Shown here: positions 15,113 through 62,156 of the stretch, one piece after another
Numbering within the stretch: position 1 is the first letter of the stretch
Layout: each line of letters begins with the position of its first letter
DNA from: Blastococcus sp. TF02A-30
GTDB taxonomy: Bacteria; Actinomycetota; Actinomycetes; Mycobacteriales; Geodermatophilaceae
Assembly (NCBI RefSeq): GCF_003319185.1
Contig: NZ_QOHJ01000010.1
Coordinates: forward strand, 62,001 to 126,000
DNA length: 64,000 bases
Direction: 5' to 3'
Notes under the pieces: generated by a model
Told to the model about the DNA's origin: nothing
The model's database searches: none
Seen by the model: the letters and a program-made list of their open reading frames with translations, nothing else
Program-made: the position numbers and the translations under genes

Positions 15113-15709
15113 ATGACCTCGTCGTTGCTCGACTGGCGCCGCCGCACGACCGCCCTCTACGCAGCCGCCCGGGCGGCCACCGACCCGGAGCAGGGCTGGC
15201 GGACGTGGCGGGACGGCCGGGACGACCTGTTCGCCACGCACCCCGACTCACCGCTCGACGCCGCCGCCCGGGACCGGTTCGCGGGTCTGCCGTTCGCGCC
15301 GTACGACCCGGCGCTCCGGTTCGACGTGCCGCTGGAGGTCGCTCCCCCCGCGCGGCTCGAGGTGGCGACGGCGGGCGACGGCGTCGTCCCGCTCGAGCGG
15401 ATCGGCCGGGTGGTGCTGCCGCTCGGCCCGCTGGACGTGTGGTGGGTCGCCGTCTACGGCGGCGGCGTCTTCCTGCCGCTGCGCGACGGCAGCGCCGGGG
15501 CGAGCACCTACGGCGGGGGCCGCTACCTGCTGGACACGGTGAAGGGCGCCGACCTGGGCGGGCAGCTGGTCGTCGACCTCAACTTCGCCTACCACCCGTC
15601 GTGCGCCTACGACCCGCGCTGGTCGTGCCCGCTGGCGCCGGAGGGCAACCGGATCGAGGCGCCGGTCGCCGCCGGGGAGCAGCTGCCCCCCGGCGGCTCC
15701 TGGTACTGA
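15113..15709 (+). CDS. DUF1684 domain-containing protein
   Basis: 198 aa, cytoplasmic. The C-terminal half has the DUF1684 hallmarks: YGGGRYLLDTVKGADLG, then DLNFAYHPSCAYDPRWSCPLAPEGNRI and a closing pv-x-aGE. The conserved Cys pair and the Asn/Pro cluster suggest a binding site, but no activity is established to my knowledge. The ATG at 15113 is preceded by GGGAGAG. It converges on the osmoprotectant operon with only a 4-nt gap, with no terminator between. Confidence 0.88.
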   Translation: MTSSLLDWRRRTTALYAAARAATDPEQGWRTWRDGRDDLFATHPDSPLDAAARDRFAGLPFAPYDPALRFDVPLEVAPPARLEVATAGDGVVPLERIGRVVLPLGPLDVWWVAVYGGGVFLPLRDGSAGASTYGGGRYLLDTVKGADLGGQLVVDLNFAYHPSCAYDPRWSCPLAPEGNRIEAPVAAGEQLPPGGSWY

Positions 15710-15713
15710 CCGA

Positions 15714-16706
15714 TCAGCCCTGCGCGAGAGCGCCGTCGGAGCTGAACACCAGGCCGATGGAGACCTCGCCCTGCTGGATGGCCGCCTTGGTCAGCGGGCC
15801 CCCGGTGTCGTACTCCTCGAAGGAGGCGAACTCCAGGCCGTAGGTCTCCTCCAGGCCCGGCTGGCAGAACGGCCGGGTCGGGCACTCACCGGGGCCGCCC
15901 AGGACCAGCGAGCCGTCGCCGCAGGCCTCGGCCAGCTCCGACAGCGTGCTGACGCCCAGCTCGTCGGCGAACTCCTGGGTGACGGCGAAGGCGTTCTGGT
16001 CGGCGGCCTCGGCCGGCTCGCCGATGGCCAGCCCGCCCTCCTCGGCCAGCGGCCGGAGCACCTCGACGGTGGCCTGGACGTCGCCGGAGGCCACCTGGTT
16101 GGCGTCGTCGCCCTCCAGGAACTCGGTCAACGTCGACAGGTACTCGGGGAACACCTGGATCTCGCCGCGCTGCAGGGCCGGCAGGTACAGCTCGCGGTTG
16201 CCGACCTCCTGGACGGTGGCGTCGAAGCCGGCCGCCTGCAGCACGTCGGCGTAGACGGTGGCCAGCACGGTCGATTCGGTGAAGTTGGCCCCGCCGACGA
16301 CGATCGGGCCGCTGCCCTGCTCCAGGCCCTCCGTGACGCCGTTCTCCTCGACCCACGCCGCGGCGACGTCCTCGGCGCTCTGCCGCTCGACGTCGACGGC
16401 GGCGTTCATCTCGATCAGCTCGTCGGTGGTGAGCTCCGCCGAGACCGCGTTCAACGCCGGCAGCAGCGCCGGGTTGGCCTGCGCGGCCGCGGCGTTGACC
16501 GCCGGGATGATGTTGTCGGCGTTCTGCAGCTCCTGGTCGTCCTCGAGCACCACGAGCTGCTCGCCGGCGACCGGCGCGCAGGCCTCGCCCGAGGCCTGGG
16601 TGCCGCCGTCGTCTCCGCCGGTGCCGGAGGAGCCGGACTCCCCGCAGGCCGCCGTCACCAGGGCGGCCAGGGCGAGAGGAACGATGTACCGGGTGCGCGC
16701 GCGCAT
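15714..16706 (-). CDS. glycine betaine/choline-type substrate-binding lipoprotein, circularly permuted
   Basis: Ligand-binding lipoprotein of the importer encoded upstream. The signal peptide ends in a lipobox (LVTAAC) with Cys21. Residues 134-330 match the start and middle of OpuCC/ProX-like proteins (IVVGGANFTE, NRELYLPAL, FPEY, ADQNAFAV, CPTRPFCQPGLE, IGLVFSSDG) and stop there. The block that normally follows and ends the family, LVVLEDDQELQNADNII to VDVERQSAEDVAAAWVEENGV, instead sits at 51-124 before the start of the normal domain. This is a circular permutation, not a truncation: all parts are present, once. The length of 330 aa is normal. The ATG at 16706 follows AAGGCGGGG. Confidence 0.9.
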   Translation of the reverse strand: MRARTRYIVPLALAALVTAACGESGSSGTGGDDGGTQASGEACAPVAGEQLVVLEDDQELQNADNIIPAVNAAAAQANPALLPALNAVSAELTTDELIEMNAAVDVERQSAEDVAAAWVEENGVTEGLEQGSGPIVVGGANFTESTVLATVYADVLQAAGFDATVQEVGNRELYLPALQRGEIQVFPEYLSTLTEFLEGDDANQVASGDVQATVEVLRPLAEEGGLAIGEPAEAADQNAFAVTQEFADELGVSTLSELAEACGDGSLVLGGPGECPTRPFCQPGLEETYGLEFASFEEYDTGGPLTKAAIQQGEVSIGLVFSSDGALAQG

Positions 16707-18284: not shown

Positions 18285-19472
18285 GTGGACGCTACTGCGC
18301 CACCCCCACCGCCCGCACCGCCCGGCGGCGCCGAGGAGATCCGCCTCGAGGGCGTCAGCAAGGTGTACGACGACGGGACCGTCGGCGTGGCCGAGCTGGA
18401 CCTCACCTTCGCCGCCGGCGAGCTGACCGTCCTGGTCGGCCCGTCCGGGTGCGGCAAGACCACCACGATGAAGATGATCAACCGGATCATCGAGCCCACG
18501 ACCGGGCGCCTCCTGCTGGGCGGCGAGGACGTCACCGGGGTCGACCCGGTGCGGCTGCGCCGCCGGATCGGCTACGTCATCCAGAACGTGGGCCTCTTCC
18601 CGCACCAGACCGTCCGGGCCAACGTGGGCACCGTGCCGCGGCTGCTGGGCTGGGACCGGGCGCGCACCCGGGAGCGCGTGGAGGAGCTGCTGGCCCTCGT
18701 CGGCCTCGACCCCGCCGTGCACGCCGACCGCTACCCGCACCAGCTCTCCGGTGGTCAGCGCCAGCGCGCCGGCGTCGCCCGGGCGCTGGCCGCCGACCCG
18801 CCCGTGCTGCTCATGGACGAGCCGTTCTCCGCGGTCGACCCGGTGGTCCGCGAGCGGCTGCAGTCGGAGTTCCTGCGGCTGCAGCGGGCCGTCCGCAAGA
18901 CGATCGTCTTCGTCACCCACGACATCGAGGAGGCGGTGCGCCTCGGCGACCGGATCGCGGTGATGAGCGCCGGCGGGCGGGTGGAGCAGTTCGCCACCCC
19001 CGCGGACCTGCTCGGCCGCCCGGCCACCGACTTCGTCGCCGACTTCGTGGGCGCCGACCGCGGTCTCAAGCGCCTGGCGGTCACCCCGATCGACGCCACC
19101 GACCTCGAGCAGCCGCCGGTGGTGCACGTCGACGACGGGCTGGCCGACGCCCGCAGCGCCCTGCAGCGGGTGGGTGCCCGCTGGGCCGTCGTCCTCGACG
19201 ACCGCGACCAGCTGCACGGCTGGCTGTCGGCCGAGCGCGCCACGGGGCCCGGCACCGTCCGCGACTCCTGCCGCCGGATGGAGGCGTGGGTCCCGGTCGA
19301 CGCCTCGCTCAAGACGGCCTTCGCCACGATGCTCCAGCAGGAGGCGGGGTGGGTCGCGGTGCTGGACGGAGACCGGTTCCTCGGCGTGCTGACCCCGGAG
19401 TCGCTGCACGCCGCGCTGCGCCGCTCGGTCGAGGGCAGCGTCCCGGAGACCGCCGGCGCGCTGCGGGCCTGA
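18285..19472 (+). CDS. osmoprotectant ABC transporter ATP-binding protein with CBS pair
   Basis: 395 aa. Walker A GPSGCGKT at 52-59, Q-loop in VIQN, signature LSGGQ at 154-158, Walker B VLLMDEP at about 174-180 and the switch His in FVTHD. Residues about 265-385 form two CBS repeats, as in OpuCA/GbuA, where they sense ionic strength or nucleotides and gate transport. The GTG at 18285 follows GGAAGGG. It is divergent from both permeases and the binding protein, rather than first in one operon. Its stop abuts the converging DUF3180 stop with no gap. Confidence 0.95.
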   Translation: MDATAPPPPPAPPGGAEEIRLEGVSKVYDDGTVGVAELDLTFAAGELTVLVGPSGCGKTTTMKMINRIIEPTTGRLLLGGEDVTGVDPVRLRRRIGYVIQNVGLFPHQTVRANVGTVPRLLGWDRARTRERVEELLALVGLDPAVHADRYPHQLSGGQRQRAGVARALAADPPVLLMDEPFSAVDPVVRERLQSEFLRLQRAVRKTIVFVTHDIEEAVRLGDRIAVMSAGGRVEQFATPADLLGRPATDFVADFVGADRGLKRLAVTPIDATDLEQPPVVHVDDGLADARSALQRVGARWAVVLDDRDQLHGWLSAERATGPGTVRDSCRRMEAWVPVDASLKTAFATMLQQEAGWVAVLDGDRFLGVLTPESLHAALRRSVEGSVPETAGALRA

Positions 19473-61835: not shown

Positions 61836-62156
61836 TCAGTCGGCGACGGACTCGTCGCGCGCGGGGCGGCGCACCGGCGGGCGCAGGGTGTAGACGCCCG
61901 CCTGGCCGGGGAGCTCCTGCAGGTCGTACCGGTGCACGACCTTGGGGCCGTCGTGCAGGTGCACGTGCGTGATCGTCGGCAGCGGCTCCCCGTGCCGCGC
62001 CGCGCGGATCTCGACCCGCCCGTCCAGCGGCCCCCCGACGAACAGCAGCACCGCGTCGTCGGCGCCGCAGTCGGTGCCGGTTCCAGCGTCCTCGGACAGT
62101 TCTGCGCTCCCTCGTCTCGTCCCGCGGTCAGCCAGGGTAGGCGCGGACGACGACAC
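61836..62156 (-). CDS. small conserved protein of unknown function
   Basis: Up to 106 aa. The conserved-looking core is DAVLLFVGGPLDGRVEIRAARHGEPLPTITHVHLHDGPKVVHRYDLQELPGQAGVYTL, a small beta-rich unit with a His-rich turn. The start is uncertain: GTG 62156 lacks a ribosome binding site, whereas a CTG at 62099 is preceded by GAGGGAG at good spacing, with TACCCT farther upstream. A CTG start would give an 87-aa protein beginning MSEDAGTG. Its stop is 1 nt from the pemK stop, with no terminator between. Confidence 0.65.
   Translation of the reverse strand: MSSSAPTLADRGTRRGSAELSEDAGTGTDCGADDAVLLFVGGPLDGRVEIRAARHGEPLPTITHVHLHDGPKVVHRYDLQELPGQAGVYTLRPPVRRPARDESVAD

Follow-up and report, generated by a model that had tools for sequence, protein, structure and literature searches.

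Introduction

Can the chain of a two-lobed substrate-binding protein begin and end at a different point of its fold while the protein goes on serving the same permeases? The question is raised by a gene in Blastococcus sp. TF02A-30, located on the 64,000-nucleotide stretch analysed here (the window; positions 62,001 to 126,000 of contig NZ_QOHJ01000010.1), which encodes a lipoprotein related to the OpuCC/ProX binding proteins of ATP-binding cassette (ABC) importers. A preliminary description, made from the sequence by eye, had proposed that the segments of this protein occur in rotated order; its coordinates for the gene are correct, and the strand, which it did not give, is the minus strand (Table 1). 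Natural circular permutations have mostly been described as single, old events. The comparisons reported here confirm by alignment that the window protein is a circular permutant in which every block of the family appears once, cyclically shifted, and related proteins have been rotated at further positions. At a probability of roughly 85%, we regard it as a working lipoprotein that binds the substrate of an OpuC/ProU-like ABC importer and is encoded by a circularly permuted gene.

Rotated block order of the window protein

The family was divided into five blocks, named A to E in canonical order, and the window protein follows the order E-A-B-C-D, referred to as P1. Its translation, a single uninterrupted open frame, runs from LVVLEDDQELQNADN ... 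VDVERQSAEDVAAAW through IVVGGANFTES, ADQNAFAV and CPTRPFCQPGLEE to GLVFSSDGALAQG, which is followed directly by the stop codon, so that the motifs quoted in the preliminary description are present in the rotated order it gave. The Pfam family PF04069 (OpuAC) recognizes the protein with 153.8 bits, passing the cut-off of 21.2, through a match that is not collinear: in the genome search, profile positions 187-257 lie upstream of positions 2-184. Two more PF04069 matches in the same genome (C24 and C11) are both in canonical order and cover profile positions 2-256. The NCBIfam equivalog NF049931 (OsmF) scores 89.3 bits against a cut-off of 400, which is not reached.

Searches with phmmer against protein chains of the PDB give the same picture, with residues 130-324 aligning to positions 3-193 of A. 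fulgidus ProX (AfProX; 1sw2) and residues 51-124 aligning to positions 201-273, in swapped order; EgtUC is matched in the same swapped fashion. A comparison hidden Markov model (HMM) of 269 positions was built from 34 canonical-order relatives (L074, L075, L002, and L103 excluded), and the native protein matches it in two pieces, model positions 192-268 followed by 1-194. Moving residues 49-124 to the C-terminus yields a single match over model positions 1-267 with 344.4 bits, while eight alternative rotations of the same residues each remain split in two. The two pieces together cover the canonical model once, as expected from the earlier claim that each segment occurs a single time, and the shift is cyclic, with all canonical blocks present and none lost, duplicated, or frameshifted. 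The canonical order given in the preliminary description is correct. An alignment in canonical order spanning the whole protein was sought and not obtained, and no frameshift restoring a C-terminal block is present in the one open frame or in the 75 open reading frames (ORFs) of the same order described below.

The P1 order among relatives

A pattern scan for close relatives, covering one genome per species in 84,980 genomes, returned 73 loci, of which 66 have the P1 order; L068 is truncated at the end of its contig, and the remaining six (L072-L077, from Streptomyces, Cellulosimicrobium, Gryllotalpicola, and Microbacterium) are canonical, four of them with one block unscored. Together with the window gene and eight further ORFs this gives 75 P1 ORFs, the cores of which all differ; L003 (the same gene as L004), L092 (whose protein forms part of the L059 protein), and L117 (a repeat of L078) were dropped before counting. 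By record title, most P1 proteins come from Blastococcus, Geodermatophilus, and Modestobacter, and others from Trujillonella, Salinispora, Allorhizocola, a member of the Sporichthyaceae, and a Frankiales bin, so that Geodermatophilaceae, Micromonosporaceae, Sporichthyaceae, and other families are represented, in addition to two records with doubtful organism labels. All 66 P1 loci of the pattern scan have a lipobox-like N-terminal cysteine ahead of the rotated block, and the joint between the old C-terminus and the old N-terminus has a median length of eight residues across the 75 proteins.

A profile built from 32 P1 proteins (A1) found near full-length matches in at least 17 of 394 genomes of the window's class, ten of which were read and all found to be P1, and in at least 2 of 396 genomes drawn from the phylum Actinomycetota, counted in both cases among listed matches that reach below the strong ones. 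The P1 order is therefore fixed across a whole group of relatives and not the peculiarity of one odd protein, and the earlier expectation that permuted forms might occur in other actinobacteria was justified, both by P1 and by two further rotations in other lineages. The order was first noticed by eye in one genome, where a misassembly, a frameshift, or a wrong gene call might mimic a rotation. Nothing found here supports such an artefact, and the presence of the rotated order in 66 of 73 related loci excludes an assembly error; given the uninterrupted frame, the identical order in ORFs with differing cores, and the cysteine ahead of the rotated block, we rule these sources of error out and consider an artefact hardly conceivable.

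At least four genomes of the same family (loci L138-L141), chosen for closely spaced matches, carry two P1 genes in tandem, each with its own lipobox. The two doubtful labels deserve separate mention. The only match assigned to "Spirochaetaceae" (L059; JAJAYQ010000026.1) groups with the Sporichthyaceae protein, and the same protein occurs in a genome of the window's class (G531); the label is probably wrong. Likewise, SPQJ01000026.1 (L008), titled "Bacillus sp. AZ43" and of unverified organism, encodes a P1 protein 81% identical to that of the window beside matching ATPase and permease genes, and is probably a mislabelled actinobacterium.

Other rotations in the family

Two more orders came to light in the phylum sample as two-piece matches of differing order. 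P2 proteins (C-D-E-A-B; 11 proteins and the fragment L091) start at the strand before ECPxRP and end in SDLA, whereas P3 proteins (D-E-A-B-C; L080 and L087) start at FxPLDxGGP and end in YGLxF. P2 occurs in families f10, f51, and f34 with the same cut and a similar start, xASxLxxGGPPECP. The P3 cut is also present in a distant subfamily (L099 and L150), where it was read from the sequences, the block profiles scoring weakly there. A lipobox stands in front of 10 of 11 P2 proteins (the remaining one, L088, starts at a contig end), both P3 proteins, and both proteins of the distant P3 type.

A second profile, A3, representing the rotated E-A junction, was searched in four classes, each picked for a known permutant. 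Leaving fusions aside, full-junction matches were found in 6 of 24 genomes (class of G234), at least 2 of 66 (G250), 3 of 119 (G430), and 4 of 27 (G323). In G088 and G114 a canonical copy is present besides the permutant.

In four proteins (L151, L152, L154, and L155) a rotated OpuAC domain of C-D-E-A-B order is fused to PG_binding_1 and polysaccharide deacetylase domains, and the window's permeases and ATPase have no match within the 5-6 kb read around them. The fused domain possibly serves a cell-wall enzyme in sensing a solute or in anchoring.

Number of permutation events

The groups P1, P2, and P3 were defined by block order before any tree was made, with the fragment L091 counted as P2. 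A careful tree was computed from 70 re-rotated sequences (L099, L002, L103, and ten P1 rows excluded) and a quick tree from 77, adding the distant P3 type and the four fusions; 29 of the 75 P1 proteins entered any tree. The careful tree requires six label changes (P1, two; P2, three; P3, one) and the quick tree seven (P1, one; P2, three; P3, one; distant P3 type, one; fusions, one). In the approximately unbiased (AU) test, placing all permutants of the 70 rows in one clade is rejected (p=3e-7), as is a single clade of all P2 proteins (p=1e-8). The distant P3 type joins the canonical protein L153 in the quick tree with full support, on a long branch far from P3. We arrive at a minimum of five permutation events, each either a gain or a reversal: the three cuts require one apiece, and P2 and the distant P3 type each add another.

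Two results bear on the number of separate origins, and the count is for this reason a minimum. P1 as a single clade is not rejected, being 6.3 log units worse (AU p=0.35) and present in 42% of bootstrap trees, so that P1 may or may not be monophyletic. P2 without L090 is likewise not rejected as one clade (p=0.074, a test picked after seeing the trees). This last result, along with the cut and start common to the three P2 families, would suit a single ancient permutation, followed by later shifts or reversals, in place of several gains. Three different cuts require at least three events regardless, however, reversals would themselves count as permutation events, both one-clade hypotheses are rejected, and a second group with the P3 cut sits with a canonical protein, albeit on a long branch; we consider a single ancient permutation unlikely.

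Fold, lipid anchor, and cysteines

The AlphaFold2 (AF2) model of the window protein is confident, and sequential structure aligners match it to family structures over collinear parts only; with B. subtilis OpuAC (2b4l), a sequence-order alignment extends over 41-260. Lobe limits were taken from the EgtUC report (PMC9732360) and transferred via the phmmer alignment. In this mapping the predicted position of the P1 cut is where the second hinge strand meets lobe 2, at its foot, with both hinge strands and the cleft kept. A cut that removes one of the two lobe crossings was considered and ruled out, because the EgtUC limits place it at the lobe-2 foot, where only the peptide link is gone. The model and mapping further place the P1, P2, and P3 cuts in lobe 2 and would move the lipid anchor from lobe 1 to lobe 2, in agreement with the earlier proposal that both termini and the anchor are relocated.

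Two cysteine pairs can be distinguished. The pair in ECPxRPFC (Cys275 and Cys281) is common to the family, being present in 75/75 P1, 34/38 canonical, 11/11 P2, and 2/2 P3 proteins. Cys43 and Cys262, conversely, occur together in 74 of 75 P1 proteins, are both missing from one (L062), and are never found singly, while none of 38 canonical proteins has a cysteine at either place; these 38 are the proteins in which all five blocks were found, and they do not include L072, L073, and L076, whose block D scored too weakly, or L077, in which block A was missing. Of the 11 P2 proteins, L086 alone carries a cysteine close to the Cys43 position, with no partner at that of Cys262. Gain or loss of Cys43 and Cys262 as a unit suggests that they form a disulfide, which may staple the N-terminal tail, leading into the freed hinge strand 2, to lobe 2.

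Taken together, we tentatively propose, at somewhat less than even odds, that lobe 2 is a hot spot of rotation: the anchor would have moved from lobe 1 to lobe 2 at least five separate times at three loops, either with lobe-2 tethering being favoured or with the operon often making fused tandem copies, and the new disulfide of P1 would re-tie the cut hinge strand.

Ligand pocket

According to the phmmer alignment, Y63, Y190, D109, E145, and R149 of AfProX correspond to Y189, F321, D236, E274, and R278 of the window protein, and Y111, Y214, and K13 correspond to N238, D64, and A140. We take Y63, Y190, Y111, and Y214 to be the aromatic cage of AfProX, and D109, E145, R149, and K13 to be further pocket residues. 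A betaine-type cage would on this basis be half kept. The term "osmoprotectant", which the preliminary description had applied to the protein, goes further than these positions allow, two of the four cage positions being non-aromatic here.

Operon context

Table 1. Positions and strands of the features discussed, given in the window except for the four OpuAC fusions, and the basis of each assignment.
Feature	Position	Strand	Basis or remark
Circularly permuted substrate-binding lipoprotein, 330 amino acids, order E-A-B-C-D (P1)	15714..16706	-	block order, PDB and profile matches
Signal peptide (residues 1-21) with lipobox, Cys21 in TAAC	16644..16706	-	by eye from sequence
Cys43, first member of P1-specific pair, just before new first strand	16578..16580	-	
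Block E, residues 49-124; canonical C-terminal block, N-terminal here; enters lobe 1 via hinge strand 2	16335..16562	-	
New joint, residues 125-132, old C-terminus to old N-terminus	16311..16334	-	
Blocks A-D, residues 133-330; canonical N-terminal lobe 1 part and most of lobe 2	15717..16310	-	
Cys262, second member of P1-specific pair, in lobe 2 where the ELAEAC helix ends	15921..15923	-	
Cys275, conserved pair common to canonical relatives	15882..15884	-	
Cys281, presumed partner of Cys275 (ECPxRPFC)	15864..15866	-	
Permease B (BPD_transp_1), 242 amino acids	16844..17572	-	upstream of binding-protein gene
Permease A (BPD_transp_1), 232 amino acids	17569..18267	-	upstream of binding-protein gene
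ABC ATPase with CBS domain (ProV-like)	18285..19472	+	divergent from permeases
OpuAC fusion L151	1259-3259	-	
OpuAC fusion L152	1848-3848	+	
OpuAC fusion L154	2427-4505	+	block D unscored
OpuAC fusion L155	1570-3852	-	block D unscored

The attributes of an ABC importer lipoprotein are both found in the window: a lipobox, recognized by eye, and adjacent permease and ATPase genes, identified by Pfam and tblastn. The four proteins of the window were compared by tblastn with 22 chosen loci, and the ATPase and both permeases are encoded next to the binding protein in all six other P1 loci tested (L005, L008, L046, L058, L063, and L147, the last with a different gene order). The same genes accompany P2 (L117, L144, L145, L146, and L157), P3 (L142 and L149), the distant P3 type (L143 and L150), and canonical proteins (L148 and L072), and were not found by this search beside L156, which is a canonical copy, or beside the four fusions. 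The context of the six P1 loci gives, as far as gene neighbourhood can tell, no sign of changed docking partners. On the opposite side, a gene for a DUF1684 protein (15113-15709, plus strand) adjoins the 3' end of the binding-protein gene in convergent orientation.

The fusions illustrate that a rotated OpuAC domain can serve elsewhere, and the permuted protein might accordingly have lost its role in uptake and become a sensor or cell-wall protein. The window gene and all six other P1 loci nevertheless sit with two permeases and an ATPase, which renders such a loss very improbable. For the preferred reading of a working importer lipoprotein, we propose that a small solute would be bound in the cleft, upon which the protein would close and dock on the same permease pair, with hinge strand 2, the lobe-2 end of which is freed by the cut, presumably tied back to lobe 2 by a Cys43-Cys262 disulfide. 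Other lineages would have been rotated separately, at the same or at other lobe-2 loops.

Origin of the rotation

A different origin of the P1 order would be a chimera, in which a C-terminal block of another binding protein was placed ahead of a truncated gene, in place of the rotation of one gene. This possibility is considered by the authors describing TpMglB-2 for the poorly conserved permuted part of that protein (PMC4990184). The very best canonical rows of the window protein do differ by piece (L113 for block E, L104 for blocks A-D), as do the canonical groups matched by the pieces of the P3 protein L087 (block E to L108, A-C to L121). All 7 P1 proteins tested, however, have their best canonical hits for block E and for blocks A-D within a single class-level group (L104-L113), though not always in one and the same row, and the two pieces jointly account for the 269-position model exactly once, with nothing missing. 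We therefore judge a chimera improbable and retain rotation of a single gene.

The likely route to such a rotation would be tandem duplication, followed by in-frame fusion and trimming. The end overlaps leave no clear footprint of this route, with a small excess seen only in P2 (n=11; 3 versus -1 in controls) and a median of 0.5 in P3 (n=2) versus 0 in controls. Four long frames with a rotated junction were examined as candidate fused tandem dimers and rejected, since they are the PG_binding_1/deacetylase fusions L151, L152, L154, and L155.

Several further observations count against the interpretation offered here. In P1 the median end overlap is two residues (n=75), compared with four in 34 clean-cut controls, and no fused tandem intermediate occurs among the loci read, no dimer search having been made in other genomes. 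The test of block origin is less clean outside P1, where three P2 and two P3 proteins were tested and the pieces of L087 disagree. The 74 sequences with the P1-specific cysteine pair share ancestry and represent few independent events. The canonical comparison model (Streptomyces L072, built with three sequences) is, with a predicted local distance difference test (pLDDT) score of 59.5, too poor for use.

Relation to known binding proteins

The window protein resembles the canonical OpuCC/OsmF/AfProX/EgtUC type (PF04069; subcluster F-III) in its full-length homology once rotated, in the parts of its operon, and in retaining, from the AfProX pocket, the Asp, Glu, and Arg residues together with two aromatic positions. 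It differs in its block order, its predicted lobe-2 anchor, its extra cysteine pair, and the replacement of two of four cage tyrosines by Asn and Asp.

Circular permutation among binding proteins is already on record. The CPSARST report describes it among the glycine betaine-binding structures 2B4L, 1R9L, and 1SW1, which belong to the same superfamily and show the same kind of rearrangement (PMC2395249). The pairs given there have identities below 24% (PMC2395249), whereas the permutants described here share approximately 45-70% identity with their canonical neighbours over the blocks compared; here, moreover, the operon type is mostly the same and rotation recurs at several cuts. TpMglB-2 (Tp0684) is a circularly permuted glucose-binding lipoprotein whose topology, its authors suggest, may be an adaptation to anchoring (PMC4990184). 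Like the window protein it is an anchored ABC binding protein of rotated topology, and it binds its ligand in the cleft, but it has a Type I/cluster B fold, another cut, and a fourth hinge crossing (PMC4990184). A related group was found by its authors, and the accessible part of their account mentions no second rotation (PMC4990184). In literature on permutation and domain dislocation, of which subscription papers lay mostly outside our coverage, no description of the present rotations was recognized among the papers listed. Of five terms for binding proteins, none occurs in PMC12667903, and PMC2912341 has no bearing on the question. The recurrence of permutation at several cuts in one importer family appears to be new.

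Significance

Profile searches break permuted proteins such as these into two weaker matches. For one gene in one conserved type of operon, a canonical and three rotated orders now exist side by side at moderate divergence, with the permease genes kept. They constitute replicated natural experiments, informative on the places at which a two-lobed binding protein tolerates a cut, on the effect that an anchor on either lobe has on docking, a question raised for TpMglB-2, and on the possible repair of a cut hinge strand, and thereby offer a natural test of the flexibility of protein architecture.
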